From a virus: DNA of 41,751 nt. How positions within the stretch are numbered: the stretch's first letter is position 1; each line of letters starts with the position of its first letter. Made by a program: the position numbers and the translations under genes. The notes beneath the pieces are model-generated. The model made no database searches. It had not been told where the DNA came from and saw only the letters and a program-made list of their open reading frames with translations. Below are positions 5,080 through 41,751 of this stretch, piece after piece. Where the stretch lies: positions 1-41,751 of the IMG/VR virus record IMGVR_UViG_3300035670_000492; one strand, given 5' to 3'.

Positions 5080-5089
5080 GGAGCCTGAA

Positions 5090-5299
5090 ATGCACCTTGC
5101 ATCCAACTGGCGCGAAATCGCGCGCCGGTCGTGGAGCTTCTGGCTCATGGCCGTGGCCGCGATCCTGAGTGTCGCCGAGGCGGTCTTCCCGTTCTACTCC
5201 GACCTGTTCGACCGGACGACGGCCGCGCTCATCACGTTGGGGCTCGTCCTGTCCGCGATGATCGCGCGGCTGGTCTACCAGAAGGGGCTGTCGAAATGA
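5090..5299 (+). CDS. Holin-like small membrane protein
   Basis: 69 residues with two hydrophobic segments (about 17-36 and 45-62) separated by a short loop with acidic and basic residues (DLFDRTT), and a basic C-terminus ending KGLSK. An AAGGAG ribosome-binding site lies just upstream of the ATG. It is followed, with a 4-base ATGA overlap, by the endolysin gene. Two-segment small membrane proteins at this position are usually class II-like holins that trigger timed release or activation of the endolysin. Assignment rests on topology and context, not on sequence identity I recognise. Confidence 0.7.
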   Translation: MHLASNWREIARRSWSFWLMAVAAILSVAEAVFPFYSDLFDRTTAALITLGLVLSAMIARLVYQKGLSK

Positions 5300-29543: not shown

Positions 29544-29575
29544 CTGTTTCTCCTTTCTCGCCCAAGCGGGCGGTT
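29544..29575 (-). promoter_or_regulatory. Intergenic leader module: hairpin plus ribosome-binding site
   Basis: Minus strand: stem CGCCC/GGGCG around loop GCTT, then GAGAAAGGAGAAACAG and the ATG of the 155-residue gene. Shorter than the other copies: the TCAACC element is missing. Confidence 0.6.
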
Positions 29576-29617
29576 AGTCCGTCATAGTCGGCGCCATGGT
29601 AGAGCGCCAGCGGACGA

Positions 29618-30019
29618 TCAGGGCAGGTAGGTGAAGTGGTTGACGACCAGCGCGTCCTTGCCGATCTCCGCCGCGAAAGCCTCCGCCTCGATCCGATTGG
29701 TGTAGGACGAGACGTAGGGTCCGCGCTCGTCGGTGTAGAGAACCGACCACAGTTCGACCTCGCCACGCTTCGCCCCGTCGAATCCCGTGACCGTGGAGAT
29801 GCCCGGCGACGTGTCGGCTACCTCCGGGCCTCCCGGACCGTCCTCGGCTGCCAGCGACCCAGGATTCGAGCAGGAGCAGTCATCGAGACGCAGGGCCTCG
29901 ATCATCTCCGACAGGGCGCCGGCCAGAACTTCGGCCAGAGCGGGACTCGGGAGCGGTCGGCCGGCGTCGGCTTCGGCGCGGAGCCGGGCGCGAGCGGACA
30001 TGATGTTGAACGAGTCCAT
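29618..30019 (-). CDS. Small phage protein, unknown
   Basis: 133 residues from ATG 30019 (GGGAGGG upstream). Helical start (MSARARLRAEADAGRPLPSPALAEVLAGALSEMIEALRL), a Gly/Pro-rich middle with CSCSN, and a beta-rich end ELWSVLYTDERGPYVSSYTNRIEAEAFAAEIGKDALVV. That end looks like a small phage domain that recurs in host-takeover regions. Function unknown. Between it and the next gene only the leader module is seen. Confidence 0.6.
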   Translation of the reverse strand: MDSFNIMSARARLRAEADAGRPLPSPALAEVLAGALSEMIEALRLDDCSCSNPGSLAAEDGPGGPEVADTSPGISTVTGFDGAKRGEVELWSVLYTDERGPYVSSYTNRIEAEAFAAEIGKDALVVNHFTYLP

Positions 30020-30021
30020 GA

Positions 30022-30222
30022 TCAGCCCTCCCTCACAACGATGATCTTGAAGATGGCGCCGGGAACCATGAGCAGGACGTTGGACGGATTGCCCGGTTCG
30101 AGTGCCGGCCCCATCACGTCGTAGACGGCGCCCGTGTTGAAATCCTCGATCTCGTCGAGCAGGTCGAGCGCATCGCGGACTGCGGCAGCGATGACTTCGG
30201 TGGTTGGAACGATGACGGTCAT
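30022..30222 (-). CDS. Very small phage protein, unknown
   Basis: 66 residues from ATG 30222, preceded by a full leader module. TVIVPTTEVIAAAVRDALDLLDEIEDFNTGAVYDVMGPALEPGNPSNVLLMVPGAIFKIIV. A helix then hydrophobic beta-strands. Stop lies 2 bases before the next start, so the two are translated as a pair. Confidence 0.6.
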   Translation of the reverse strand: MTVIVPTTEVIAAAVRDALDLLDEIEDFNTGAVYDVMGPALEPGNPSNVLLMVPGAIFKIIVVREG

Positions 30223-30262
30223 GTGTGAAACTCCTTTCACGGTTGAGCCCAGGGTGGGCGGT
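30223..30262 (-). promoter_or_regulatory. Intergenic leader module
   Basis: Stem GCCC/GGGC, loop ACCCT, then TCAACC and GAAAGGAGTTTC before the ATG. The TGA of the preceding gene (30263-30265) directly abuts the 5' side of the hairpin. Confidence 0.65.
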
Positions 30263-30592
30263 TCAGGCGACAAGTTCTGTCCCGTCGTCCAGATGGATCC
30301 CGACGATCTGGAAACTGTCGACCAACTCCTCGTCGGACAGGTTGGCGACCAACTCCCGGACGTGTTCGCCGATCATGGCGCGGGTGATCGGCCCGGCGTA
30401 GACGCCCATCGTCACGAGAAAGGATCCCGTCGCGAGGATCCGGACGTTCAGGTCGTCCAGATTTGGCGTCACGAACCGCTCGGCATCGCCCCGCATGGCG
30501 AACTTGGCGACGATGCTCATGTCCGGATCCACGATGCAGTGCGGGCAGACGGTGTCACGCTCGGGGCGGTGAACGATCTGGTACGTGGTCAT
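30263..30592 (-). CDS. Small phage protein with CxxC, unknown
   Basis: 109 residues, MTTYQIVHRPERDTVCPHCIVDPDMSIVAKFAMRGDAERFV... A CPHC pair near the start suggests a metal or redox site, but there is no second pair. The rest is mixed alpha/beta (ILATGSFLVTMGVYAGPITRAMIGEHVRELVANLSDEELVDSFQIVGIHL). Unknown function. Preceded by a leader module. Confidence 0.6.
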   Translation of the reverse strand: MTTYQIVHRPERDTVCPHCIVDPDMSIVAKFAMRGDAERFVTPNLDDLNVRILATGSFLVTMGVYAGPITRAMIGEHVRELVANLSDEELVDSFQIVGIHLDDGTELVA

Positions 30593-30632
30593 GTGCGAAA
30601 CTCCTTCTCGGGATAGCCCAGGTGGGCGGGTT
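30593..30632 (-). promoter_or_regulatory. Intergenic leader module
   Basis: TAA of the previous gene overlaps the 5' edge; stem GCCC/GGGC, loop ACCT, then GAGAAGGAGTTTCGCAC and the ATG. Nearly identical to the copy at 31188-31226. Confidence 0.65.
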
Positions 30633-30828
30633 AGCGTTCACAGTGCGCGATCAGGAAGCGAGCCCGTTTCAAATTTCGCGCCCGGCGCCGGTCGTCCTTC
30701 GCCGTGTCAGAGGCGCCGTTCTCCTTGGCGTGTTGGGCGTCGGCCTCCGCCCATTCGATCAGCACGTTCACCTCCGCAAGTACGGAAGCGATCTTCGCGT
30801 TGGTGGTCTCGTAGGTGCGGGTGCCCAT
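30631..30828 (-). CDS. Very small helical protein, unknown
   Basis: 65 residues from ATG 30828: an alpha-helical protein with acidic first half (KIASVLAEVNVLIEWAEADAQHAKE) and basic second half (KDDRRRARNLKRARFLI). GGAGGGCTGACC precedes the start, and the upstream stop is 2 bases away, so it depends on coupled translation. Confidence 0.55.
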   Translation of the reverse strand: MGTRTYETTNAKIASVLAEVNVLIEWAEADAQHAKENGASDTAKDDRRRARNLKRARFLIAHCER

Positions 30829-30830
30829 GG

Positions 30831-31187
30831 TCAGCCCTCCGCCTTGGCGATGGCGGCCTTGGCGTTGTCCCACGCGATCCGCGCCGGAGAGCCGGGGGAG
30901 CCATGCGGGGCGAACTGCAACAGCCCCTTCACCGCGGCGACCAAGTCGGCGACCTGTTGCAGCTTCTCCGGGTCATCACTGAACTTCGCGGGAACCGGGA
31001 TCTCGTCGCCGCCTTCGTAAAGGACGCCAACCCACGACTCGCCCGGGACGCCGTCATCATAGTTCCCATCGTCTTCGTCGATAGCGATCCGGCACGCTTC
31101 CTCCGGGCTCGCGGCGCGAACTTCCATCAGGTTGTCCATGAGGAAGTTGCAGTAGAGGCGGACGCGGTAGTCCTTCATCTTCGCCAT
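30831..31187 (-). CDS. Small phage protein, paralogue A of a duplicated pair
   Basis: 118 residues from ATG 31187. The core EVRAASPEEACRIAIDEDDGNYDDGVPGESWVGVLY matches the gene at 31459-31842 (VEADTPEEACRKAIAEDDGEYEGGDLGAPWVENY), and both end KAEG. The pattern, a beta-strand then PEEACR helix and an acidic loop, is common in small phage proteins of unknown function. Preceded by a leader module. Confidence 0.65.
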   Translation of the reverse strand: MAKMKDYRVRLYCNFLMDNLMEVRAASPEEACRIAIDEDDGNYDDGVPGESWVGVLYEGGDEIPVPAKFSDDPEKLQQVADLVAAVKGLLQFAPHGSPGSPARIAWDNAKAAIAKAEG

Positions 31188-31226
31188 GTCAGAAACTCCT
31201 TCTCGGGATAGCCCAGGTGGGCGGGT
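31188..31226 (-). promoter_or_regulatory. Intergenic leader module
   Basis: Stem GCCC/GGGC, loop ACCT, then GAGAAGGAGTTTCTGAC and ATG. Only a few bases differ from the 30593 copy, mostly just before the start codon. Confidence 0.65.
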
Positions 31227-31231
31227 TGGTG

Positions 31232-31456
31232 TCACCACTCGATGCCGACGTAGACGACATGGGCGGGGTTGAAGAAAAGCTCGCTCGGATCCTGTGCCGG
31301 GGCGCATAGCCGGTATCCCCCGGTGGCTTCCTTATCCGACCGGACGTGGACCCCGACGAACCGGAAAGCTGTCGTCTGGATAGTGAGTGTGTATCCAGCG
31401 CCGCCATGGTCCGGATGGTCGGCGTACTTGATGGCCTCAAGGATCGGGTCGCGCAT
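31232..31456 (-). CDS. Small phage protein, unknown
   Basis: 74 residues: MRDPILEAIKYADHPDHGGAGYTLTIQTTAFRFVGVHVRSDKEATGG... A His-rich turn (DHPDHGGAG) then beta-strands. 2 bases after the upstream stop. Unknown. Confidence 0.55.
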   Translation of the reverse strand: MRDPILEAIKYADHPDHGGAGYTLTIQTTAFRFVGVHVRSDKEATGGYRLCAPAQDPSELFFNPAHVVYVGIEW

Positions 31457-31458
31457 GG

Positions 31459-31842
31459 TCAGCCCTCCGCCTTGGCGCGCACGTCGCGGCCGACCTCGGC
31501 GAGGAAGTCCCGGCCGTCCTCGATGATCGAGCCGTTGACGTTCCCGGGCTTCAACAGGTCGACCAGAATGTCCAGCGAACGGCTCAGGAGCTTGTCCCGG
31601 TCGGCCAAACGATCCTCAAGCGCGAACGGCGATTCGCTGAACTCTAACGGGGGCCCGTGCTCCTCAAGCTCGTCATCAATCTGGTAATTCTCAACCCACG
31701 GCGCGCCAAGGTCGCCTCCCTCATACTCGCCGTCGTCCTCAGCAATCGCCTTGCGGCACGCTTCCTCCGGGGTGTCGGCCTCGACGTGCATCCGGTTCCA
31801 TTCGAGCCGGTAGGCCATCAGCAGAACGTGGTACGTGGTCAT
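31459..31842 (-). CDS. Small phage protein, paralogue B of a duplicated pair
   Basis: 127 residues. Shares the TPEEACRKAIAEDDGEYEGGDLGAPWV core with the gene at 30831-31187, but has a different N-terminus (MTTYHVLLMAYRLEWNRMHVEA) and a longer helical end. An ancestral tandem duplication, with one unrelated small gene now between the copies. Preceded by a leader module. Confidence 0.65.
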   Translation of the reverse strand: MTTYHVLLMAYRLEWNRMHVEADTPEEACRKAIAEDDGEYEGGDLGAPWVENYQIDDELEEHGPPLEFSESPFALEDRLADRDKLLSRSLDILVDLLKPGNVNGSIIEDGRDFLAEVGRDVRAKAEG

Positions 31843-31882
31843 GTGGGAAACTCCTCTCCTGTTGAGCCCATGCGGGCGGGTT
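31843..31882 (-). promoter_or_regulatory. Intergenic leader module
   Basis: Stem GCCC/GGGC, loop GCAT, then TCAACAGGAGAGGAGTTTC and ATG. Confidence 0.65.
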
Positions 31883-31887
31883 GGTGT

Positions 31888-32142
31888 TCAGAAGCCCTTG
31901 GCGCGAGCCTTCGCGAGCAGGGCGGTCCCCGTGTCCGTCAGGCGGACCATGCCGGCCGCGTCGTGGTCGACTAGCCCATGCCGGAAGGCCGCCAAGGCCG
32001 CCGCGCCGCCGGGCAGCTTGCCGTTGGCGACCTTCATCAGCACGACGAGTCGCGCGCGCGTGACCCCCAACGACTTGGCGATGGATTCCTCCCGGCGCCG
32101 GGCGGCGACGGCGCGAGGGTTGATGGACTTGGCGCGGGCCAT
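31888..32142 (-). CDS. Small DNA-binding-like protein
   Basis: 84 residues, basic N-terminus with NPRAVAARRREESIAKSLGVTRARLVVLMKVANGKLPGGAAALAAFRHGLVDHDAAGMVRLTDTG. The middle can be read as a MarR/winged-helix fragment ending in a wing (RLTDTGTALL, like the LTxxG motif of MarR-type proteins). A small regulator is likely. Confidence 0.6.
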   Translation of the reverse strand: MARAKSINPRAVAARRREESIAKSLGVTRARLVVLMKVANGKLPGGAAALAAFRHGLVDHDAAGMVRLTDTGTALLAKARAKGF

Positions 32143-32145
32143 GGC

Positions 32146-32463
32146 TCAGCCCTCCCTCGCCGCTTTGGCCTTGAGCGCGGCGAGCATGGCCGCTTCGTCC
32201 TTGCCGTCCTCGGAATAGATCATCCGGACGACGGCCGGCACGAACTCCCAATCGTAGGGGATGAGCGACTGTTGCTCGCCGCTCGTCAGCCCGTCCCACA
32301 GGCGCAGGATCAGCGGCGCGTGGGCGATGGCTTCGTGGCGCAGCGCGACGGTGCCCTCCCGTCGCCACGACGCATCCAGCACGGGCAGCGCGTCGCGCAT
32401 TTCCAGCATGGCCTCCCACGCACACAGCGCGGCCTCCATGCGAAGGGATTCGGTGTGTTCCAT
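32146..32463 (-). CDS. Small phage protein, unknown
   Basis: 105 residues from ATG 32463: MEHTESLRMEAALCAWEAMLEMRDALPVLDASWRREGTVALRHEAIAHAPLILRLWDGLTSGEQQSLIPYDWEFVPAVVRMI. Helical, rich in Trp/Leu/Glu. Preceded by the leader copy with an altered stem. No known function. Confidence 0.6.
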   Translation of the reverse strand: MEHTESLRMEAALCAWEAMLEMRDALPVLDASWRREGTVALRHEAIAHAPLILRLWDGLTSGEQQSLIPYDWEFVPAVVRMIYSEDGKDEAAMLAALKAKAAREG

Positions 32464-32502
32464 TGTGGGAACTCCTTCCGTGGTTGAGCCTCCGGGGAGG
32501 CG
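32464..32502 (-). promoter_or_regulatory. Intergenic leader module with covarying stem
   Basis: Here the stem is GCCTC/GAGGC instead of GCCC/GGGC: both sides changed together so pairing is kept. TCAACC and GGAAGGAGTTCC follow before the ATG. This copy is the best evidence that the hairpin itself is selected. Confidence 0.7.
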
Positions 32503-32503
32503 G

Positions 32504-32848
32504 TCAGTGGATCCGGTCGGCGAAGCCAAGCGCGATGAAGCGTTCCGCCATGGGCGGGTTGGCCTTGGCGTCGATCATCGGGCGCGGGATGGAGGATCCC
32601 GGGGAGTGGTAGCAGTCCAGCATCTCCCGGAGCGCGCGGGCGTAGTCCTCATCGTCGGAACACGTTTCCAGCGTCTCGTCGCCTTCGCAGTAGGTGAAGA
32701 TCTCGCGAGTGGTCGGATTGGTCCAAATGCCGAAATAGCTGGCATCCTGATACGTATCGACCTGCGCCCAGCCGGCGGCGTAGGTGCGGCGGGCGTCGTG
32801 GCCGTAACGGTCCGCGAACAGGCGAAAGCCTCGGGTGATTGTCGACAT
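32504..32848 (-). CDS. Small phage protein, unknown
   Basis: 114 residues from ATG 32848: STITRGFRLFADRYGHDARRTYAAGWAQVDTYQDASYFGIWTNPTTREIFTYCEGDETLETCSDDEDYARALREMLDCYHS. Looks like a beta-sheet with acidic helices; similar proteins with DAxYYGxWxNPxxRxIxxYxEGD occur in many phages (from memory), without known function. Preceded by a full leader module. Confidence 0.65.
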   Translation of the reverse strand: MSTITRGFRLFADRYGHDARRTYAAGWAQVDTYQDASYFGIWTNPTTREIFTYCEGDETLETCSDDEDYARALREMLDCYHSPGSSIPRPMIDAKANPPMAERFIALGFADRIH

Positions 32849-32889
32849 GCTGGAAACTCCTTCCGTGGTTGAGCCCAAGCCGGGCGGGT
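32849..32889 (-). promoter_or_regulatory. Intergenic leader module
   Basis: Stem GCCC/GGGC, loop GGCTT, then TCAACC and GGAAGGAGTTTCC before the ATG; the upstream TAA stop (32889-32891) overlaps the 5' edge. Confidence 0.65.
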
Positions 32890-33725
32890 TAGACGGCCAA
32901 TGCAGCGGCGTTCAGAACGTCCGCGACGTAATAGTAGCTGGGAGCCGGCGGCATCTGCCCCGGCCGCACGAATGCGGGCGGCTGTTCGTCGCGGCGATTG
33001 TCCGTCTTGGTCCAAAGCAACTGTTCGACCAATTCGTTCTGTCGCCGGGCGATACGGTCCCACCGCGCCTTGTCGAAAGAGCCAGTGGCGTTCCACGTCT
33101 CGCGGTCATTGGGAGCCAGCCAGCACGCGGCTTCCTCGTGGCTGTCGAAACGGTAGATCGAGCGATTCCCACGCATGACGTAGGCGAAGCCGTCCACGCA
33201 AAAACGGATCTCGTACTTTGACCTGTCGGTGCGCTGCACCCACGGGCCGCACCACCGATCTTCGGCCATGACGGACAGGGGGATATCAAGCTGATTGGCG
33301 TACTGCGGCCACGCCCGGCGCGCGAGCGCCAGACCATCTAGAAACTCCGGGCCGCTTCCGTCCGTGGACACGTCATGCGTTTCCAGGATGGTCGCGAGGT
33401 AGCACAGGGCCGCGACGACAACGGCGTCGTATGGCTTGCGAGCGGTCTTGCAGAAGTCCCATCCGCGCCGCTTTTCCCAAGCCGCCTTGGGTGGGCGCTT
33501 GCGGTTGACCGTGAACGTCTCGTGCGAGTCGTCGCCAACGCCGTTGAACAGGATCCGGTCGCCGTCGATCTCGGGCTTGGTGCCTCGGTCGCCCATGCCA
33601 TCGGCGAGATAGATGCCCTCGGCATGGATTGCGTGCTTGAACAGGGCCGCGAAGTCGGCGGAGACCGTCGTCCATTCGTCCTTGGTGAAGTCGCGGCGCT
33701 GGGTCCAGTAATGTGTGTAGCCCAT
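32889..33725 (-). CDS. MGYTHYW-type phage protein, unknown
   Basis: 278 residues starting MGYTHYWTQRRDFTKDEW, a signature shared by a widespread uncharacterised family in phages and bacteria (from memory). It has a beta-rich middle (FNGVGDDSHETFTVNRK, RRGWDFCKTARKPYDAVVVAALCYL). The C-terminal ~110 residues (WVQRTDRSKYEIRFCVDGFAYVMRGNRSIYRFDSHEEAACWLAPND...) may be a separate added domain. Many conserved aromatic and Cys residues hint at an enzyme, but none is assigned. Located directly after the DnaN gene, with a leader module between. Confidence 0.65.
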   Translation of the reverse strand: MGYTHYWTQRRDFTKDEWTTVSADFAALFKHAIHAEGIYLADGMGDRGTKPEIDGDRILFNGVGDDSHETFTVNRKRPPKAAWEKRRGWDFCKTARKPYDAVVVAALCYLATILETHDVSTDGSGPEFLDGLALARRAWPQYANQLDIPLSVMAEDRWCGPWVQRTDRSKYEIRFCVDGFAYVMRGNRSIYRFDSHEEAACWLAPNDRETWNATGSFDKARWDRIARRQNELVEQLLWTKTDNRRDEQPPAFVRPGQMPPAPSYYYVADVLNAAALAV

Positions 33726-33762
33726 GGTTAACTCCTTCCGTGTTTGAGCCCGGAACGGGCGG
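33726..33762 (-). promoter_or_regulatory. Intergenic leader module
   Basis: Stem GCCCG/CGGGC, loop TTC, then TCAAACACGGAAGGAGTTAACC and ATG. Stem is one pair longer than in most copies. Confidence 0.65.
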
Positions 33763-33798
33763 GAGAGCGGGCGGCCGATTCAGCCGCCCGCATTGTCG

Positions 33799-34995
33799 TC
33801 AGGCCCGCATGGGCATCACGACCATGAGCAGGTCGGGATCCCCGCTGGACGTGAACAGGATCGGCGACCAGTGATCGAGCGTCGCAATCGTCACCGTCTC
33901 GCTGTCGAAGTTCTCCAGCGCCGCCGTGAGATACCCGGCATTCATGCCGAACTCCGGCCCCGGTTCGCCGGAGACGTTGTGCGCCGCCTGAAAGTCGAGA
34001 ACGGACGATCCGAGATCCGGGTTGACCACGGTCAGCCGCACATGGTCGGATTCGGGCGTCACCTTCACGGCGCGACCACGCTCCGAACTGATCGACGCGA
34101 CCTGCCTGACCGCGTCGGCGAACTCCGAACGCATCACCCGCATGACGTGGGAATTGTTCTGCGGGATCACTCGCGGGTAGTCCGGGAATGTCCCGTCCAC
34201 GAGTTTCGACGTCATGACCACGTCGCCGCACGTCAGCCGGCACCGCGTCTCCGATACTTCCAGCGTGGACGTCGCCGCGGCACCCTTCGCGCCCATGATC
34301 TTGATGAACTGGCCGACCGTCTTTGCCGGGATGATGATTCCTGGCATCCCCTTGGCCGGCAGACCGGCGGGCGTGGTGAACCGGGCGAGACGGTGCCCGT
34401 CTGTCGCAACGGCCGTCAGCGTGTCACCATCGGGCCGGGAGACGGTGTGCAGATACACGCCGTTGAGGTAGTAACGAGTTTCCTCGTTGGAAATGCAGCC
34501 GGCGACCTTCCGGAACAGCTTCGCGAACGCGGGGGAAGTGTCGCGGATTCGGTGCGTGAACTCGCCATGCGTGACTTGCGGGAAGTCGCCAACCGGGAGA
34601 CCGGAAAGACTGGTGCGGAACCCGTCAATGTCGACGACCACGCGATGCTCGCCGTTCTCACCGTCCGGCTTCACGTCGAGCAAGATCGACCGTGCGCCCT
34701 TGGCCTTCTTCAACAGGTCCGCAAACTGGTGCGCCGGAACCGTCGCATCAAAGCCAAGATCGACGGATGCATCCACGCGAACCGTTGTCCAGATATCGAG
34801 ATCGGTCCCGGTGATGGATACGAGACCGGGATGCTCACTGACGATACGGACATTCGCCAGAATTGGAATCGTGGTGCGCTTTTCCACGGCCCTCTTGACC
34901 ATGTCGAGAGCGCGGGAAAGCCGGTCGCGGTCAATGATGGCCGAAGCGGCGACGGCGGGCGAGTGCGAACGTGCGATGGATTCGACTGCTGACAT
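33799..34995 (-). CDS. dnaN: DNA polymerase III beta subunit (sliding clamp)
   Basis: 398 residues from ATG 34995. The three-domain clamp is recognisable: ALDMVKRAVEKRTTIPILANVRI and TGTDLDIW in domain 1, NGVYLHTVSRPDGDTLTAVATDGHRLARF and LVDGTFPDYPRVIP in domain 2, and an ending SGDPDLLMVVMPMRA (the common ending is ...y-x-VMPMR(L)). Length is close to cellular clamps. It would tether a polymerase to the template; because no phage DNA polymerase is seen in the window, it may load host Pol III onto phage DNA or replace the host clamp. It is the first gene after a candidate promoter at ~35.05 kb. Confidence 0.92.
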   Translation of the reverse strand: MSAVESIARSHSPAVAASAIIDRDRLSRALDMVKRAVEKRTTIPILANVRIVSEHPGLVSITGTDLDIWTTVRVDASVDLGFDATVPAHQFADLLKKAKGARSILLDVKPDGENGEHRVVVDIDGFRTSLSGLPVGDFPQVTHGEFTHRIRDTSPAFAKLFRKVAGCISNEETRYYLNGVYLHTVSRPDGDTLTAVATDGHRLARFTTPAGLPAKGMPGIIIPAKTVGQFIKIMGAKGAAATSTLEVSETRCRLTCGDVVMTSKLVDGTFPDYPRVIPQNNSHVMRVMRSEFADAVRQVASISSERGRAVKVTPESDHVRLTVVNPDLGSSVLDFQAAHNVSGEPGPEFGMNAGYLTAALENFDSETVTIATLDHWSPILFTSSGDPDLLMVVMPMRA

Positions 34996-35034
34996 TCTGG
35001 AAACTCCCTTTCGGTTTGAGCCCATGACGGGCGG
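34996..35034 (-). promoter_or_regulatory. Intergenic leader module (type copy)
   Basis: Minus strand: ACCCGCCC, loop, GGGCTCAAACCGAAAGGGAG, TTTCCAGA, ATG. The hairpin has stem GCCC/GGGC and loop GTCAT. Fifteen such modules precede starts between 29.5 and 40.6 kb; loops differ in sequence and length (3-5) while stem and ribosome-binding site are kept. Degenerate copies without a hairpin precede 35312, 35550, 35793 and 38009. Confidence 0.65.
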
Positions 35035-35054
35035 GTCGGTTGACGTGATTTGTG

Positions 35055-35078
35055 TAACGCGAAAAGTGTTAGCGTGTC
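35055..35078 (-). promoter_or_regulatory. Candidate promoter with near-palindromic operator
   Basis: TAACGC-GAAAA-GTGTTA (35055-35071) is a near inverted repeat very like the element at 40691-40709. On the minus strand TTGACA (35073-35078) is a perfect -35; the -10 about 17-18 bases on (TTACAC/TACACA) is weak and lies within the operator. It would drive dnaN and the genes to 28 kb. Confidence 0.5.
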
Positions 35079-35080
35079 AA

Positions 35081-35113
35081 GCGCGAGTTGGCGTTGAGCG
35101 CGAGTTGGCGTTG
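35081..35113. repeat. Iteron-like tandem repeats, cluster 1
   Basis: Two copies of GCGCGAGTTGGCGTTG at 35081-35096 and 35098-35113, 17 bases apart, between the promoter at 35.06 kb and a 64-residue gene. The last codons of that gene are close by but the repeats lie outside it. Confidence 0.7.
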
Positions 35114-35117
35114 GTGG

Positions 35118-35312
35118 TCATTTCCATTCGAGCGCGTAAAGCGTCTTGCCATACGTCGATTTGTGCTCGGAGCGGGTCACGACTCCCAAGTTCGGCGCCT
35201 TGCCGGGAAAGTTGGCCCAAACTGCCATGCCCTTGCTCGGTAGTGGCTCCTCGATTCCCCATAGCGCGAACGCGCGAAGCATTTGATCGGCGGTGTAGTA
35301 GTTCGTCGCCAT
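35118..35312 (-). CDS. Small phage protein, unknown
   Basis: 64 residues from ATG 35312 (AAAAGGAG upstream). MATNYYTADQMLRAFALWGIEEPLPSKGMAVWANFPGKAPNLGVVTRSEHKSTYGKTLYALEWK: a small helix plus beta-hairpin design, with no recognised family. It is flanked on both sides by the iteron-like repeats, which may mean that it binds them or that it interrupts an origin. Confidence 0.6.
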   Translation of the reverse strand: MATNYYTADQMLRAFALWGIEEPLPSKGMAVWANFPGKAPNLGVVTRSEHKSTYGKTLYALEWK

Positions 35313-35335
35313 TTGAAAACTCCTTTTCAGGTTGA

Positions 35336-35384
35336 GCGCGAGTTGGCGTTGCGCGAGTTGACGTTGAGCGCGATCAAGCGTTGA
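35336..35384. repeat. Iteron-like tandem repeats, cluster 2
   Basis: GCGCGAGTTGGCGTTG at 35336-35351, GCGCGAGTTGACGTTG at 35351-35366, and a degenerate copy from 35368. They replace the hairpin of the leader module at this gene junction and run into the stop region of the next gene. Confidence 0.65.
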
Positions 35385-35550
35385 CGGTGACGCGACCAGT
35401 CCGCCCGGCGAGCAAGCGCGCGAGACGGACGGCGGCCCGGCGCGAGCGGCAGGTGTCGAGTCGAACGGTGGCGGCGCCATCGGACGTCACGGCGGAAACC
35501 GTCCATACGGTGATGATGCGCCCGGCGGCGCGGTCGACCTGATAGATCAT
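35374..35550 (-). CDS. Very small basic protein, unknown
   Basis: 58 residues from ATG 35550, preceded by AGAAAAGGAGTCCC. MIYQVDRAAGRIITVWTVSAVTSDGAATVRLDTCRSRRAAVRLARLLAGRTGRVTVNA: beta-strands then an Arg-rich helix. Gene packing and ribosome-binding site support it. Confidence 0.55.
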   Translation of the reverse strand: MIYQVDRAAGRIITVWTVSAVTSDGAATVRLDTCRSRRAAVRLARLLAGRTGRVTVNA

Positions 35551-35577
35551 CGTCGGGACTCCTTTTCTGGTTGAGGG

Positions 35578-35793
35578 TTAATAGTCGGCGACTTCCACGC
35601 CGCAATCGGCCGGATCGAGCGACTGCGAGATCAGGATTTCAAAAAGAGCGCGATTGACCGTTGTGACGATTTCGCGGGCGTCGCTTTCCAACATGCCATT
35701 GCCGGCGGCGGCGCGGATCCCTTGTTCGATTACTTCGGCGTCAGTCAGGTCGGTCACGAAACGGACCGACAGGAAAAGGTCGCGGATTTCCAT
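35578..35793 (-). CDS. Small acidic protein, unknown
   Basis: 71 residues: MEIRDLFLSVRFVTDLTDAEVIEQGIRAAAGNGMLESDAREIVTTVNRALFEILISQSLDPADCGVEVADY. A simple alpha/beta pattern with a helical centre. A degenerate leader (AGAAAAGAAACTTCTCAC) precedes it. Unknown function. Confidence 0.6.
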   Translation of the reverse strand: MEIRDLFLSVRFVTDLTDAEVIEQGIRAAAGNGMLESDAREIVTTVNRALFEILISQSLDPADCGVEVADY

Positions 35794-35823
35794 GTGAGAA
35801 GTTTCTTTTCTGGTTGGCGGCGA

Positions 35824-36114
35824 TCAGCGGGCGGGCATGGGCGCGACCATGCGGGCGGCAACCGGACCGCACCATTCGGCACCCTCGACCCAGCGCACAG
35901 CGTCGGCGAGGGTCGCGAACCCGGGCGGGTCGCCCGCGCAGGCGTCGCGGTCGATCCGGTCGGCGACCCAGCGGAACGGGCGACGGCGGGTCGGTCGGGT
36001 CGGGAATACCAGTCCGACCAGATTGCCGCCGTCGACCAGTCGGAAGCCAACGGGCGCCCGCTGCCAATGGGCAGGGCGGTCGAGTGTCGGGCGTGGTCGA
36101 GTGTCGGGCGTCAT
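35824..36114 (-). CDS. Small phage protein, unknown
   Basis: 96 residues from ATG 36114 (AGGAGA upstream), Arg/Pro-rich start followed by GFRLVDGGNLVGLVFPTRPTRRRPFRWVADRIDRDACAGDPPGFATLADAVRWVE. The end resembles a short single-domain fold in which a variable strand leads to the FATLxxAxxWxE helix found in several small phage proteins. Codon use shifts from here rightwards. Confidence 0.6.
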   Translation of the reverse strand: MTPDTRPRPTLDRPAHWQRAPVGFRLVDGGNLVGLVFPTRPTRRRPFRWVADRIDRDACAGDPPGFATLADAVRWVEGAEWCGPVAARMVAPMPAR

Positions 36115-36149
36115 GCGGGATTCTCCTGTGTCGCCCATGCGGGCGGGTT
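36115..36149 (-). promoter_or_regulatory. Intergenic leader module
   Basis: Stem CGCCC/GGGCG, loop GCAT, then ACACAGGAGAATCCCGC and ATG. The TCAACC part is replaced by ACACA in this and the following copies. The ~105 bases between this hairpin and the 36256 gene are C/G-rich with no reading frame I can support. Confidence 0.6.
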
Positions 36150-36255
36150 GGTACGGTCGCCCAGCCGGGCAGGCAGCCCGGCGGGCGTTGGCAGGCAGGC
36201 GGCAGCCGGGCGCAAAGCGCGACCGATCCGCCTGGGCGATTTCCGACAGCCCGGG

Positions 36256-36399
36256 TTAAAGGGCGGCGGCGACCGCAGCGACAGCGGCGGCGGCGATGGC
36301 AGCCCGGTCGGGCGGGCGTCGGAACCGCAGCGGAACCGGCTGGGCGGCGAGGGCGGCGGCGTCAAGATGGCGGGTTATCAGTCTGGCAATGTCGGCCAT
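36256..36399 (-). CDS. Very small Ala-rich protein
   Basis: 47 residues from ATG 36399 after AGGAGAAACAGAC. MADIARLITRHLDAAALAAQPVPLRFRRPPDRAAIAAAAVAAVAAAL; low-complexity Ala-rich end. Kept because it has the standard leader module and ribosome-binding site; expression is uncertain. Confidence 0.45.
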   Translation of the reverse strand: MADIARLITRHLDAAALAAQPVPLRFRRPPDRAAIAAAAVAAVAAAL

Positions 36400-36437
36400 G
36401 TCTGTTTCTCCTGTGCTGTGTCGCCCATGACGGGCGG
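36400..36437 (-). promoter_or_regulatory. Intergenic leader module
   Basis: Stem GCCC/GGGC, loop GTCAT, then ACACAGCACAGGAGAAACAGAC and ATG. The ~90 bases between it and the VWA gene stop are C/G-rich spacer. Confidence 0.6.
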
Positions 36438-36530
36438 GCGCGACCGTCGCGCGGCGACCGGGCAGGCTGGGCAGCCCGGCGGCGACGCGGCGGCGGGTCG
36501 GCAGGCAGGGCGCCCGCCGACCCGACCGGA

Positions 36531-38009
36531 TCAATCTGTGATATGGACAACCTCGCCGAATCCAAGGCTGGTCGACAGGCGGTCGATATCCGATCCGCGC
36601 CCCCATGCCGCCCATAGGGTCGGCACGCCCGGATCGGTCGGGCGGTCGAAACATTCAAGATCGGTGAAGTAGACGACGGCGGCGGCGTCGGCGGCGTTTT
36701 CCTCGACCCAATCGAACACAGGGCGGAACTTTGTACCGCCGCCGCCGACCGGCTTAACCTCGACCGGGTCGCCGCGTCCAAATTCGGCAACCGACCGGAT
36801 CGCTGTGTCGCAGCACAGGATCGTGACACGGTCGACCATGCCCGACTCGACCAGCCCGGACAGTTCCGCCTGAAACGCCGCGAGCGGAGAATCTGCGATT
36901 GATCCGCTTGTGTCGATTGCGACCACAACATGCGACAGGGCGTCGGACCGCAGCCCGGGCAGATATAGACCGGCGGCGATATGGCGGCGGTTCGGGCGCA
37001 GCCATGAATAGTCGCGGCGGGCGGCGTCATCTATGAACCGCAACAGGGCGGCGCGCCAATCGACGGCGGGCGCCCGGTTCAAGTCATCACCCAGCCGGGC
37101 GATAAAACCCGGAACCGACCCAGCCCGCTTGCACGCGACCGCGACCGCCTGTCGGGTCGCAATTTCCCAATCCGTCGCAAGTTCCGATTCGCCCGCCGGG
37201 TCGATTTCCTCGACCGGGTCGAGAATGCCGCCGCAACCGCCCGGGTCGGCGGCGTCGGCGAACGGGTCGGGCTGCCCGCCCTGCGGTTGCCCAGCCTGCC
37301 CGCCGCCCTGCGGTTGCCCGGGCTGCGGCTGCCCGCCCGCGCCGCCCGGCTGCCCGGCGGATTGCCCGCCCTGCCCGCTGGGCTGCCCGCTGACGCCCGT
37401 TTCGCTGCCCGGCTGGTTGCTGGGTTGCCCAGCCTGCCCGCCGCCCTGTGCGCCATCCTGTGCGCCCTGTGCGCCAGCCTGCCCGGGCTGGTCGCCGGAC
37501 TGGTTGCCCGGCTGCGGCTGCCCGTCGGGCTGCGGCTGGTTTCCATCCTGCCCGTCGCCCTGCCCGCCCTGCGGCTGCGGCTGCGGCTGGTTTCCTGGGT
37601 CGCGCCCGTACAGTTCCGAGTAAATCCTTTCTGCCGACAGGTTCACGAATCGCCGATCCGACAGGGCGCCGCGTGGCAGGACATAACCCGCCGCGCGCAG
37701 CCCGGGATTGATTGCGTGGTCGGCGGCGACATTCCAACGGTCGATTGGGCGACCGTCGCGGCGGGCAAAATGCCCGTATGCACAGTGCATCACCTCATGT
37801 GCAAAAACGCCGATCAATTCCGGGTCGGACAACCCGGCGACAAACCCGGGATTGGCGAACAGGCGGCGCCCGTCAACCGCCATGGTCGGCACGCGGTCGG
37901 TTATGACAATCTCGATCCGCGTGGCCAGAACGGCGAAAAACGGCTCTAGGTCGATCAGGGCGAGGCGCGCCCGGATCAACCGATCAATGGTCGATTCGTT
38001 GCGGTTCAT
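36531..38009 (-). CDS. Metallopeptidase-like/VWA domain protein (DUF2201 type)
   Basis: 492 residues from ATG 38009. Residues 1-140 resemble the DUF2201 metallopeptidase-like domain, with a zinc motif HEVMH (71-75) and WNVAADHAIN. Residues ~141-249 are a low-complexity Gln/Pro/Gly linker (repeats of QPQ, GQAGQP). Residues ~285-492 are a VWA domain with the MIDAS sequence DTSGS (366-370) in VVVAIDTSGSIADS, followed by VTILCCDTAI and AAVVYFTDLECF. Proteins of this build usually work with a MoxR-type ATPase, which is encoded just upstream. The zinc site appears intact, so peptidase activity or metal-dependent binding is possible. It is transcribed after the ATPase, 16 bases apart. Confidence 0.85.
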   Translation of the reverse strand: MNRNESTIDRLIRARLALIDLEPFFAVLATRIEIVITDRVPTMAVDGRRLFANPGFVAGLSDPELIGVFAHEVMHCAYGHFARRDGRPIDRWNVAADHAINPGLRAAGYVLPRGALSDRRFVNLSAERIYSELYGRDPGNQPQPQPQGGQGDGQDGNQPQPDGQPQPGNQSGDQPGQAGAQGAQDGAQGGGQAGQPSNQPGSETGVSGQPSGQGGQSAGQPGGAGGQPQPGQPQGGGQAGQPQGGQPDPFADAADPGGCGGILDPVEEIDPAGESELATDWEIATRQAVAVACKRAGSVPGFIARLGDDLNRAPAVDWRAALLRFIDDAARRDYSWLRPNRRHIAAGLYLPGLRSDALSHVVVAIDTSGSIADSPLAAFQAELSGLVESGMVDRVTILCCDTAIRSVAEFGRGDPVEVKPVGGGGTKFRPVFDWVEENAADAAAVVYFTDLECFDRPTDPGVPTLWAAWGRGSDIDRLSTSLGFGEVVHITD

Positions 38010-38025
38010 GGCTGGTTTCTCCTGA

Positions 38026-39123
38026 TCAGGCGGCAACGGCGGCATGGCTCGCAGCCCAGCGGGCATAGGCTGCGGTTTCCTTCAAAGCCGGATTGCGGTC
38101 GGTCGCCTCGCGGACCGCGACCTGTGCAAATTCGGCGGGCATCCGGGCGGCATAGTCGACCAGCCCGCCCATGGTCGGGACGGTGACAACCCGGGCGAGG
38201 GCGGCGGCGAGAGCGTACATAACAGACAAGTCTGTCGGCACGGGCGCGCCCAGCGGGTCGGCGAGGCAGGTTGTCGGATTGGGCAGGCGGTCGCGGATCC
38301 GGGCGAACGCTTCAAATTCCGACGCGACGGCGGCGCCGACCAGCCCGGCGACCAGCGGATAACGGATATCGGCGGGCAGCCCGGCGACCTTGGCGACCTG
38401 TGCCCATGCTCGCGGCGTCGGGAACGCGACCGCGTCGGATTTCGGGTCGAATTGGTGAAGCATCCCGGGACGGGCGATCAGGAACGCCCGGACAACCGGA
38501 TCCAGTCCGTTCCGGTTCGCCCATGCCTGCCAATCGTCATGGTCGACCACAATCGACAGGTGGCACATGCGATTCGCGAGGGCGGTCGGCATCCGCTGGG
38601 CGCCCGCCCGGTCGGCGGTCCGGTTGCCCGCCGTCATGATTACCCAGCCCGGCGGCAACCGATAATCACCTATGAACCGGTCGAGAATCAGCCCGAAAAG
38701 GGCGGATTGGACGGCGGGCGCGGCGGTCGGCAATTCATCAATGAACAGGATCCCGACCGGACCGTCGCGGTCGACCATGGGCAGGAAATCCGGCGGCAGC
38801 CAACGGGTCCGGTCGCCCTCGACCTTCGGCAGCCCGCGCAGGTCGACCGGATCCAGAAGGTTGGCGCGTAAATCCTTCAACGGGATCCCGGCGGCGGTCG
38901 ACCATGTCGCGACCATGTCGCCTTTCGCGCCCAGCGACGCGGCGGCGTCGGCGAGGGCGACCGGGTCGGCGATCAGGTCGGCGGGCGCCATGGCGGCGGC
39001 GACCTGTCGGGCAATGTCGGATTTCCCGACGCCCGGCGGTCCGATCAGGTTGACGGCGGCGACGCCCGCCGCGAGGGCGGCGCGGGCGCAGGCAATGGCG
39101 CGGCTGGGTTTCACGTCAAGCAT
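38026..39123 (-). CDS. MoxR-like AAA+ ATPase
   Basis: 365 residues from ATG 39123 (AGGAGAG upstream). Walker A GPPGVGKS (28-35), Walker B ILFIDE (125-130), sensor 1 in VIMTAGNRT, and an arginine-containing QRMPTALANRM. The wider sequence (LRANLLDPVDLRGLPKVEGDRTRWLPPDFLP, then LPTAAPAVQSALFGLILDRFIGDYRLPPGW) is characteristic of MoxR/RavA-type ATPases that act as chaperones with VWA partners. Its substrate here is unknown; the adjacent VWA/metallopeptidase-like protein is the probable partner. Low-frequency codons relative to the left part of the window (TTG, GTT, GCA) mark this block as acquired. Confidence 0.88.
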   Translation of the reverse strand: MLDVKPSRAIACARAALAAGVAAVNLIGPPGVGKSDIARQVAAAMAPADLIADPVALADAAASLGAKGDMVATWSTAAGIPLKDLRANLLDPVDLRGLPKVEGDRTRWLPPDFLPMVDRDGPVGILFIDELPTAAPAVQSALFGLILDRFIGDYRLPPGWVIMTAGNRTADRAGAQRMPTALANRMCHLSIVVDHDDWQAWANRNGLDPVVRAFLIARPGMLHQFDPKSDAVAFPTPRAWAQVAKVAGLPADIRYPLVAGLVGAAVASEFEAFARIRDRLPNPTTCLADPLGAPVPTDLSVMYALAAALARVVTVPTMGGLVDYAARMPAEFAQVAVREATDRNPALKETAAYARWAASHAAVAA

Positions 39124-39156
39124 TGGACTCTCTCCTGTGTTCGCCCGGATCGGGCA
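39124..39156 (-). promoter_or_regulatory. Intergenic leader module
   Basis: Stem GCCCG/CGGGC, loop ATC, then AACACAGGAGAGAGTCC and ATG of the ATPase gene. Confidence 0.6.
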
Positions 39157-39174
39157 GGGTCGGCGACCCGTCAC

Positions 39175-39220
39175 GGCGGCAGGGTTGCGCCCTGCCGCCC
39201 GGGCTGATCGCCGATCAGCC
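39175..39220. promoter_or_regulatory. Two tandem perfect hairpins in the ATPase/DUF3150 gap
   Basis: GGCGGCAGGG (39175-39184) pairs perfectly with 39190-39199; immediately after, GGCTGATCG (39202-39210) pairs with CGATCAGCC (39212-39220). No T run follows on either strand, so these are more likely mRNA stability or attenuation structures than terminators. Confidence 0.55.
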
Positions 39221-40167
39221 TAGAACCATGCCGCCGCGTCGGCGGCGATTTGGTCGGCGGCGTCGGCGACCCGCCGCCGCAGGGTTTCGTCCGACCGCAG
39301 GTCGGCAGCCAACGGGTCGGGCTGGTCGCCGCCAACGATGGCGGGCGACAGGTCGAGGAGGGCGCCGACCCGGGCAGCCAAATCATCGAATCGCGGGTCG
39401 CCTGCCAGATTGAAAGCGGGCAGGACCGCCGCAAGGTCGCGCAGATTGCCAACCAGCGAATCCCGGAAGATGCCCGCCGCCGGCTGCCCGTCGCGGGCGG
39501 GCTGGTAATCCCGCAACCGGTCGGCGAGTGTCTTTACGGTCTCGACCAGCCGGGCGGCGGCGTCGCGCATAGCGTCGGCAACCGCAGCCTCGACCCGGGC
39601 GGCGAGATCCTGCCGCACAGCGTCGCCGACCTCGACCCGGAAGTCGGTCGATTGCGGCACGGGATAAACCGCGACGTCGAAACCGAACCGCCCGGCGATT
39701 TCCCGCGCGGTTGGGTAATCCGACTCGGCGAACAGGCTGCCCAGCGACGCCCGGGCGGCGTCCCTGTGCGCGTCATACGTCGCAACGAATGCCGACACCG
39801 CGCCGTCGAATTGATGCCGCAGCGACCGCATGTCGCGCAGATAGTCGGCATACAGGGCCGTCGGCAGGATCCGGGCGCCATCGTCGCCCCATGGCAGCGT
39901 CCGGGCATAGTGCAATGTCCGGGCGGCGCCCGCCGCCTGGGCGATTTCTGCCAGACTCGACCGGGCAACCAGCGTCTTGTGAAACCGCCCAGCGTCGGCG
40001 GCGGCGCCATGGTCGGCGAGGGTTTCGGCGGTCGCCCGCTTGTCTAACTTGCGAGCCGTCCAAACCCGAATCGTAGGGCGGGCGAGGACCGCCCGGGTTG
40101 CCAACATGCTTTCGGCTGCGCTGGGCGCGGCGGTCGCGGCGGCGATGGCTGCACTGATCATGTTCAT
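39220..40167 (-). CDS. DUF3150-like protein of the ATPase/VWA set
   Basis: 315 residues from ATG 40167 (AGGAGA upstream). It matches my memory of DUF3150 proteins: RPTIRVWTARKLDKRATAETLADHGAAADAGRFHKTLV, ARTLHYARTLPWGDDGARILPTALYADYLRDMRSLRHQF, FAESDYPTAREIAGRFGFDVAVYPVPQSTDFRV, then a helical Ala-rich end. DUF3150 genes commonly sit next to a MoxR-like ATPase and a VWA protein in phages and mobile elements, as here. The function of the family is not known to me; a substrate or scaffold handled by the ATPase is the simplest idea. Confidence 0.78.
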   Translation of the reverse strand: MNMISAAIAAATAAPSAAESMLATRAVLARPTIRVWTARKLDKRATAETLADHGAAADAGRFHKTLVARSSLAEIAQAAGAARTLHYARTLPWGDDGARILPTALYADYLRDMRSLRHQFDGAVSAFVATYDAHRDAARASLGSLFAESDYPTAREIAGRFGFDVAVYPVPQSTDFRVEVGDAVRQDLAARVEAAVADAMRDAAARLVETVKTLADRLRDYQPARDGQPAAGIFRDSLVGNLRDLAAVLPAFNLAGDPRFDDLAARVGALLDLSPAIVGGDQPDPLAADLRSDETLRRRVADAADQIAADAAAWF

Positions 40168-40203
40168 GGTCCTATCTCCTGTGCTGTGCCCATGGCGGGC
40201 GGG
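40168..40203 (-). promoter_or_regulatory. Intergenic leader module
   Basis: Stem GCCC/GGGC, loop GCCAT, then ACAGCACAGGAGATAGGACC and ATG of the DUF3150-like gene. Confidence 0.6.
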
Positions 40204-40223
40204 TTGCGCGAGGCTGCGCTGTC

Positions 40224-40325
40224 TCAGGCGAGGAACGCCCGCTTTTCGGCGATACGGGCGCGACGGGTCGCCCGGCGGATCCGGGTCGGCGAGTCGGCGC
40301 GACGGTCGGCGGCGTGCTTTGTCAT
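40224..40325 (-). CDS. Tiny Arg-rich peptide
   Basis: 33 residues from ATG 40325: MTKHAADRRADSPTRIRRATRRARIAEKRAFLA. About a third Arg/Lys. ACAGGAGAC upstream and a complete leader module support translation. It could bind nucleic acid, or be only a leader peptide for the DUF3150-like gene. Confidence 0.45.
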   Translation of the reverse strand: MTKHAADRRADSPTRIRRATRRARIAEKRAFLA

Positions 40326-40365
40326 GGGTCGGCGTCTCCTGTGGGTTGCGCCCGTCATGGGCGGG
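40326..40365 (-). promoter_or_regulatory. Intergenic leader module
   Basis: Stem GCCC/GGGC, loop ATGAC, then CAACCCACAGGAGACGCC and the ATG of the 33-codon gene. Confidence 0.6.
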
Positions 40366-40416
40366 TCGGTCGACAGACCGGGAGAACCGGCGGGCGCGCC
40401 CGCCGGCTCGCGCCTG

Positions 40417-40617
40417 TCAGCCGATCATGTCGAGATATCGCCGCGCCTTGCGGCTCGCGGCGATGGCGTCGCGGGCGGCGCGGATCGCGCGCGCCCGGGC
40501 ATCGTGGTTAACCCGGGCGAACCGTGCCAACGCCCGGGCGGTCCTCGCCCGGTCGGCGGCATAATCGGCATAGCTGGCGGCGAGTTTCGCGGCGACGGGA
40601 ACAAGGCTCGCGTGCAT
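40417..40617 (-). CDS. First gene of the right-end operon, small Ala/Arg-rich protein
   Basis: 66 residues behind AAGGAGACTTTGAG: MHASLVPVAAKLAASYADYAADRARTARALARFARVNHDARARAIRAARDAIAASRKARRYLDMIG. A single basic helical protein. First after the candidate promoter at 40.69 kb, and preceded by a leader module. No family recognised. Confidence 0.55.
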   Translation of the reverse strand: MHASLVPVAAKLAASYADYAADRARTARALARFARVNHDARARAIRAARDAIAASRKARRYLDMIG

Positions 40618-40653
40618 CTCAAAGTCTCCTTAGTTCGCCCATGCGGGCGGGTC
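40618..40653 (-). promoter_or_regulatory. Intergenic leader module, operon-proximal
   Basis: Stem CGCCC/GGGCG, loop GCAT, then AACTAAGGAGACTTTGAG and ATG. There is no upstream gene here, so this copy is a true 5' leader and not an intergenic spacer. Confidence 0.6.
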
Positions 40654-40673: not shown

Positions 40674-40709
40674 GGTATACACAAATCGCATTGACGCGAA
40701 AAGCGTTAA
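40674..40709 (-). promoter_or_regulatory. Candidate promoter/operator of the right-end operon
   Basis: TTGACGC-GAAAA-GCGTTAA (40691-40709) is a near-perfect inverted repeat matching the 35055 element. On the minus strand a TGTGTATACC at 40674-40683 could be an extended -10. A GACTC (GANTC) site follows at 40667-40671. Confidence 0.5.
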
Positions 40710-41751
40710 AATTGGCACGCAGCATGCATTCGCGCGCGCCTGCCCGTGCCTGATTCCCGCGCGGGTCGCGGCTGCCTCGCGCCCGCCCTGCCCGCCGCCC
40801 TCGCCGCAGGCGGCGCCCAGCCCGACCCGCCCTCGCGGTCGCCCAGCCGACCCGACCCGGACCCGGTCGGATCGACCCGCCAAACCCGGACCGACCAGTC
40901 CGCCAATTCGACCCGATCCGGACCGCCGTTCTATTTTCCGGAACCCTTGTCAAAACTAATTAGCTTTTATTTCGCCATAGCTGCCCGCTGGCGGCGTTCG
41001 TGCTTTTTTGGACCGACGGTATCTCCTGTCCGCGCGAGGCCATTTTCACTGTTTGTTCCTCTAGAATAGATTTGCTCAAATCGCGTGGTCGTGAACCCGA
41101 AGCGATAGGTTCATTTCAAATAACCCGCCCTGCCCGGGACCGTATCCTACAATCTGAACATGGGTTCCGGGGTCCGGTTTTATTGGTCAAATCCGGGCCC
41201 GGGAACGTGGAATGAATATTCCGGCGGAACGGCGCCCGGGACGCTTCCCGACCGCCGTCGCGCCCGCCGGGCGTGTCTGAAATCGCCCTGGCGCCCATGC
41301 CCGCCCGCCGGGCGCCTGCCTGCCTCAACCATGCCGACCGTCGCCCAGCCGCAACCCGCCCGGGCAGGACCCGCCCGCCGGGTCGCCCTCAACCATGCCC
41401 GCCCGGGCAGGGCGTCGCCCTCGCCCTGTGCCCAGCCCGCCCGCCGCCCAGCGCACAGCCCGCCTGCCCGCCCGACCCGTCGCCCTGCCTGTCGTGCCAA
41501 CGGGTGCCCAGCGCACAGCATCGACCCTACCCAGCACAGGGCGCCCAGCGCACAGCCAACGCATGGGCAGGACAACGAACACGCAACGCATGGGCAGCAC
41601 AGCGCAGCCCAGCACAGGCAGGCAGGGCGCCGCCCGCCCGCCCGGCCCGGCCGCGCGACCAGCGCGCGCCAGCCGCCGCACGAGAGGCAGGCCGGCCGCC
41701 GGCCGGGGGCAGGGGGGGGTCGCGTTAAAAAATGGCCAGGCGGCGCGGGAC
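40710..41751. other. About 1.0 kb without a supported gene
   Basis: The plus strand is very C-rich, especially 41.2-41.65 kb. Several open frames exist on both strands but they are Pro/Arg/Ala-rich, mutually overlapping, lack ribosome-binding sites and look like by-products of composition. The part at 40930-41110 is AT-richer. A GCGTTAAAAAA element at 41722-41732 near the right edge resembles the operator half-sites, so another promoter may lie at the border. Confidence 0.6.
41446..41597. repeat. Direct repeats in the right-end non-coding region
   Basis: GCCCAGCGCACAGC occurs at 41446-41459, 41506-41519 and 41543-41556. AACGCATGGGCAG occurs at 41558-41570 and 41585-41597. Both repeats are direct and perfect. 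They could be binding sites for an origin or packaging protein, or simple-sequence expansion in C-rich DNA. Confidence 0.6.

Follow-up and report, generated by a model that had tools for sequence, protein, structure and literature searches.

Why should so many genes of a single viral operon be preceded by the same small hairpin? The question is raised by IMG/VR virus record IMGVR_UViG_3300035670_000492, the whole of which (41,751 b) is the window analysed here, and the right part of which (29–41 kb) is a minus-strand operon with genes for DnaN, a MoxR-like AAA protein, a DUF2201/VWA protein and a DUF3150-like protein and many small genes. A sequence-only reading of this DNA had described about 15 copies of a hairpin with a ribosome-binding site (RBS) sharing one layout at most junctions of the operon. 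All 15 copies were confirmed, each on the minus strand and upstream of a Shine–Dalgarno (SD) sequence and ATG, at 15 of the operon's 23 gene starts; the layout does not extend to the other 8, at four of which the gene is the downstream partner of an overlapping pair (...GGGCTGAcc ATG). We lean towards reading each copy as a cis-acting RNA hairpin in the translation-initiation region of one gene, the copies together forming a shared tag on ~15 genes that is likely read by a factor, a function that we infer from sequence comparison.

Reading the 75 nt upstream of each start gave a constant module order of (A)CCC-GCCC-loop(4-5)-GGGC, then TCAACC, GACACA or TATCCC, then AGGAG/AAGGAG and ATG, with an A/C-rich spacer between hairpin and SD, and with spacer and SD common to the copies as well as the stem. 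The stem is GCCC/GGGC in 14 copies and GCCTC/GAGGC in one. GCCC-N3..6-GGGC lies ≤50 nt upstream of 14/23 operon starts, compared with a mean of 0.34 and a maximum of 3 in 2000 dinucleotide shuffles of the same junctions, so the array is not explained by composition, and simple GC richness, which had been named as a possible refutation, is ruled out. The same pattern occurs at 0/46 other predicted starts of the window, in agreement with the earlier remark that nothing similar precedes the left-operon genes. The loops do vary, as had been reported, although their length is 4–5 nt, which formation of a fifth G-C pair would shorten to 3 nt, and they are not wholly free, since 11/15 have C-H-T directly before the GGGC arm. 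Local folding gave a hairpin probability of ≥0.48 at 11/15 sites.

The sequence-only reading took a change on both stem sides at 32464–32502 as a sign of selection on pairing. One paired change is present, best read as insertion of a single U-A pair, with no difference among the remaining 14 stems; apart from this insertion there are no two-sided stem changes in the alignment of the 15 copies, and because the stem is near-invariant the window alone yields no covariation statistic. The evidence for pairing is mainly comparative, and the claim of selection, under-supported by the window genome, draws its strength from the covarying stems and start phasing of relatives.

These relatives were retrieved with a DnaN alignment scan of IMG/VR, which gave 80 loci, while a scan of IMG/VR with the single DnaN protein gave no matches and no close relatives at the DNA level were present in INPHARED for either the window or locus L053. 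A neutral detector, which tests for hairpin cores or stems that recur ahead of gene starts more than in dinucleotide shuffles, clearly flagged L053, L058, L059, L060, L062, L066, L078 and L091 among the DnaN loci. The copies in these loci precede SD-ATG as in the window, but with other sequences: NNCA-AUNG-UGN'N' (L053, L062, L058, L091, L066), NNGA-AUNG-UCN'N' (L060), CCCG-CGAUNNUG-CGGG (L078) and GGGC-NCWN-GCCC-TAACC (L059). The AUNG array was also found in Rhizobium lusitanum NZ_WUEY01000006 (a prophage) and in the Rhizobiales genome UCIV01000023. The array loci retrieved through DnaN share with the window MoxR, DUF3150 and a 320-aa protein (27001–27960), none of which has a match at the other DnaN loci; the 320-aa protein, encoded on the plus strand, lacks a Pfam match and is common to six array phages. 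In most relatives the loop is fixed and the stem free, so that the fixed stem with variable loop described as the element's rule holds for the window phage and L059 only.

Six phages contributed 54 copies of the AUNG family, in which pairing holds for 91.8% of stem cells compared with 59.2% when the 3' letters are reshuffled, and two-sided changes number 82 against 26.5, counts that are not probabilities because the copies are related. Slid-partner controls preserve this relatedness, and covariation is 0.75 against ≤0.15 for the slid partners. Both sides change in four of the five pairs, with the fifth going from A-U to G-U, whereas the loop region has the same A, U, G and U in every copy and any of the four letters at N. 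AUNG occurs at 59 starts in the clade compared with 0–7 for 12 altered control loops in the same phages, and at an apparently orthologous 56-aa gene the stem GGU/ACC of L053 becomes GGC/GCC in L062. Stem drift without compensation, which had been put forward as grounds for rejection, is not the pattern observed in this family.

The covariance-model search from the 15 window copies that had been proposed was run on 1.48 Mb and returned the 15 copies, two true gene starts in L059 and little else. Both stem polarities occur in L059, the GGGC/GCCC type in 11 copies (one mismatched) and the GCCC/GGGC type in 2; the TAACC flank is common to them, and each of the four pairs is reversed between the two types. 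The window and L059 copies together are 99% paired compared with 73% when shuffled (0 of 5000). These comparisons support start-phased RNA elements whose pairing is under selection in relatives. At three L059 starts (3720–5470), a second hairpin (GGCAATCAYGCC) immediately precedes the GGGC/GCCC one, which gives the impression of two stacked element types.

The distance from hairpin end to start codon is 16–24 nt in the window and has a median of 18.5 nt (interquartile range 17–20) over 66 copies in AUNG phages, while the distance from the upstream stop to the hairpin in relatives ranges from −11 to 148 nt; tight spacing to the start and loose spacing to the stop indicate that the element belongs to the start. 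Uniform re-initiation, one of the roles suggested earlier, is weakened by these stop distances and by the hairpins at the operon's first gene and at dnaN, 85 nt past the previous stop. Protection of mRNA segments found no specific support.

Orthologous dnaN, MoxR and DUF3150 starts (~37–46% protein identity) mostly keep a hairpin, with the sequence of the lineage's own type. The DUF3150 start has GCCC-GCCAU-GGGC in the window, CGCCA-AUAG-UGGC in L053 and GCUGGA-AUUG-UCCGGC in L060, and the dnaN start has GCCC-GUCAU-GGGC in the window, GGGC-UCUU-GCCC in L059 and GAUCA-AUUG-UGAUC in L062; no hairpin is present at the L059 DUF3150 and L053 MoxR starts. Many small window genes lack orthologues in the relatives, which, together with the RecT-like and exonuclease VIII proteins encoded in the window and the position of the modules at cassette edges, would fit short start repeats that let phages shuffle gene cassettes, with hairpin formation incidental. 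We consider such a recombination boundary improbable, since compensatory stem changes would be needless and would lower homology, phasing to ATG is tight, and lineage-specific sequences would block exchange among relatives.

As an out-of-sample test, the same detector was applied to 33 loci from a DUF3150 alignment scan, all on contigs not previously used. Arrays were flagged at 15/33 of these loci compared with 2/73 control DnaN loci (Fisher 1.4e-7, a value that overstates the strength because the loci are not all independent lineages), and both flagged control loci carry related hairpins themselves. The new arrays comprise AUNA loops with covarying stems (L219–L230), TAAC/GTTA hairpins (L231, L232, L242, L245, L246), AGGG/CCCT hairpins (L238) and, in L227, variable stems around a conserved CUUGCA loop. 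L240 (180–5978) has a 23-nt perfect palindrome, GTTTGTGACATGATGTCACAAAC, in six identical copies before gene starts, and the perfect palindrome GGTTCAGNCTGAACC is carried by L209 and stands before about a dozen genes of Planktothrix phage Pra-JY27 (isolate record). At least 8 hairpin sequence types are spread across array phages and prophages, and the detector found no hairpin array in phages 16-3, AmM-1, RR1-A, RHph_TM3 and Erwinia S6.

Two side observations concern these genomes. L025 and L028 (Rhizobium phages 16-3 and RHph_TM3) have an unstructured CACCACA-n-AGAGGAGAC repeat before many starts, sometimes with a hairpin upstream, and their records carry no such annotation. L209 (PP438419.1), OQ594354.1 and OL906435.1 are each 65,014 b with identical matches to the query and have Planktothricoides, Synechococcus and Planktothrix as assigned hosts; they are probably one phage, whose host is perhaps a bacterium living with cyanobacteria.

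The palindromes of L240 may act as operators in DNA instead of hairpins in RNA, and with GGTTCAGNCTGAACC of L209 they suggest that the arrays might be transcription elements, either operator or stoperator DNA sites or antitermination sites of the nut/boxB kind. The lambda nut boxB/N system is a small lineage-specific RNA hairpin with two sites per genome, near promoters, that acts on RNA polymerase, and the lineage-specific hairpins do recall cognate N/boxB pairs. Unlike nut/boxB, however, the window hairpins are present in many copies, one per gene, and phased to start codons. Loop length varies (4 or 5) and loops are non-palindromic in the window phage and the AUNG phages, which argues against dimeric DNA sites, and no terminator signal occurs at the hairpin sites, so a transcription element has, in our estimation, a low probability. 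An intrinsic terminator or attenuator was rejected, as none of 9 terminator-like matches in 29–41.75 kb falls on a start hairpin and the tails are TCAACC, GACACA or TATCCC and not a T-run.

The favoured reading places the hairpin in the mRNA and its action at initiation. At 16–24 nt before the start codon the hairpin lies where the footprint of a 30S initiation complex has its upstream edge, with the spacer, SD and ATG following, and one control would act over the ~15 right-operon genes. The agent would most likely be an RNA-binding factor, either encoded by the phage or taken by it from the host, which would recognise the loop in AUNG/AUNA phages and the stem-loop in the window phage and would help or time 30S loading. 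If a single factor has to recognise every copy, the hairpins would change as a set when the lineage changes. More tentatively, a large and mostly alphaproteobacterial phage group may possess a translation 'address' system, with one hairpin type per phage that is repeated ahead of many replication/early operon genes, a phage-specific or recruited RNA-binding factor of diversifying specificity, concerted replacement, and positions kept at orthologues.

Several results weigh against this reading. The window phage has a fixed stem and a variable loop, unlike the loop recognition deduced for relatives, so that recognition there, if any, must differ from loop reading. No trans factor was found, the genes common to nearly all array loci being only MoxR, DUF3150 and VWA (in a set partly fetched via DUF3150), and no RNA-binding Pfam domain, among those scanned, is present in the protein families common to array phages, many of which are uncharacterised. 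Folding gives a low hairpin probability (≤0.22) at 4/15 window sites, and overall the hairpins did not make the SD more accessible than their letter-shuffled versions did (Wilcoxon p=0.40). The arrays of L240, L209 and L231 consist of near-perfect palindromes and may therefore be sites in DNA.

The missing accessibility gain also counts against a structural insulator, in which a small hairpin would keep the RBS from upstream pairing or provide a standby or docking element with no dedicated factor, and similarity within a phage would arise by duplication or gene conversion of start cassettes. Phasing at the 30S edge, the A/C-rich spacer and the interchangeability of hairpin types between lineages suit such an insulator, and cassette copying would explain why window spacer and SD are shared besides the stem and why similar neighbours share the module: the adjacent small genes at 30831–31187 and 31459–31842 look paralogous and each has it, a possible module-copying route. 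Neither homogenisation nor structure alone explains why the AUNG/AUNA loop bases are invariant while the stems diverge. That the loop letters stay constant while the stems are free speaks for a factor that recognises them rather than for mere insulation, and we regard the insulator as rather unlikely.

The likeness to mycobacteriophage start-associated sequences (SAS) noted in the sequence-only reading is apt. In cluster K mycobacteriophages, SAS is a 13-bp sequence, GGGATAGGAGCCC, that is itself the RBS and lies a few bp ahead of the start codon, and the extended sequence (ESAS) has 17-bp arms whose differences, according to the authors, do not support RNA pairing (PMC3203893); SAS-like motifs are also present in cluster EF Microbacterium phages (PMC7302621). 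The window array resembles SAS/ESAS in having 10–20 copies in one orientation, at non-structural genes, beside the RBS of unrelated genes and with a group-specific consensus. It differs from SAS in that the SD (AGGAG/AAGGAG) is without flanking GGG..CCC at all 15 junctions and the hairpin lies upstream of it, from ESAS in its 4–5 bp stems with pairing supported by covariation in relatives, and from both in sequence and hosts. Microbacterium cluster EG phages carry inverted repeats (GATCAACCNNGGTTGATC) in 8–10 copies, 14–22 bp before the start, which the authors liken to those of cluster O mycobacteriophages (PMC7302621). These share with the present arrays a short inverted repeat, a near-equal distance to the start codon and many copies in short intergenic gaps, but form a long near-perfect palindrome of fixed sequence with a 2-bp centre, whereas here 4–6 bp stems, 3–5 nt loops, covariation and other hosts are found. 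Citrobacter phage Mordin, a proteobacterial phage, has a 26-bp SAS-like repeat before 8 genes with no hairpin reported (PMC4611695). None of the SAS/ESAS, Microbacterium or Mordin repeats is reported as a covarying RNA hairpin in the cited papers. The best mechanistic precedent is Mu Com, a phage protein that binds RNA at a small hairpin ahead of the mom start and activates translation (PMC6483171), of which the proposed factor would be a many-gene version, although Com acts on one gene only and no Com-like protein was found here.

Rfam (4227 covariance models) gave 0 matches in 29.0–41.75 kb at E up to 5, and 0 at the gathering cut-off for the window, L053, L059 and L060. The strict window-type pattern was absent from genome contigs, and viral contigs did not contain the GGGCTCAAC..AAGGAGTTTC form. 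The patterns CCCGCCC..GGGCTCAACC (20 matches) and ACCCGCCC..GGGC..CAGGAGA (21 matches) mostly hit single copies at unrelated starts or within genes, with no arrays; short blastn matches of the module to phages were at chance level, and an L013 array suggested by a regular expression was rejected because the match falls inside an open reading frame. A search for phage start hairpins found nothing in the open-access literature, a restriction that makes this weak evidence.

Features of the right operon of the window, in order from its first gene
Feature	Position	Strand	Remarks
Start hairpin GCCC-GCAT-GGGC	40637..40648	-	19 nt before ATG 40617, operon's first gene
Start hairpin GCCC-ATGAC-GGGC	40350..40362	-	before ATG 40325
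Start hairpin GCCC-GCCAT-GGGC	40188..40200	-	before DUF3150-like gene, ATG 40167; lineage-specific hairpins at most orthologues in relatives
Gene, DUF3150-like protein	39220..40167	-	weak Pfam match; conserved in array-bearing phages
Start hairpin GCCC-GATCC-GGGC	39143..39155	-	before MoxR-like AAA gene, ATG 39123
Gene, MoxR-like AAA ATPase	38026..39123	-	
Gene, DUF2201 metallopeptidase/VWA-like protein	36531..38009	-	start without hairpin
Start hairpin GCCC-GTCAT-GGGC	36423..36435	-	before ATG 36399
Start hairpin GCCC-GCAT-GGGC	36133..36144	-	before ATG 36114
Start hairpin GCCC-GTCAT-GGGC	35020..35032	-	before dnaN, ATG 34995
Gene, DNA polymerase III beta clamp (DnaN)	33799..34995	-	
Start hairpin GCCC-GTTCC-GGGC (or GCCCG-TTC-CGGGC)	33748..33760	-	before ATG 33725
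Start hairpin GCCC-GGCTT-GGGC	32873..32885	-	before ATG 32848
Variant start hairpin GCCTC-CCCG-GAGGC, one extra U-A pair	32488..32501	-	before ATG 32463
Start hairpin GCCC-GCAT-GGGC	31866..31877	-	before ATG 31842
Start hairpin GCCC-ACCT-GGGC	31211..31222	-	before ATG 31187
Start hairpin GCCC-ACCT-GGGC	30616..30627	-	before ATG 30592
Start hairpin GCCC-ACCCT-GGGC	30247..30259	-	before ATG 30222
Start hairpin GCCC-GCTT-GGGC	29560..29571	-	before ATG 29543

Other repeats were observed around the same operon. A dyad, TAACGC-TTTTC-GCGTYA, lies upstream of its first gene (~40690–40710) and of dnaN (~35060–35085, with TAACAC in one arm), and the two may form a shared operator. Short direct repeats of AACGCCAACTCGCGCTC occur at 35040–35120 and 35313–35375, around small genes that have CAACC and an SD and lack a hairpin.

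Start-associated repeats in actinobacteriophages have been known since 2011 with no assigned function. We file the start hairpins as the same kind of phenomenon, in which the form of a covarying RNA hairpin is new. An element that is clearly an RNA hairpin, is phased to the start codon, keeps its position before corresponding orthologues of diverged phages and exists in several sequence types makes the old SAS question directly testable in tractable rhizobial hosts, and the hairpin types could yield orthogonal translation-start modules. The array points to an undescribed way for phages to mark or control the translation of a block of genes.

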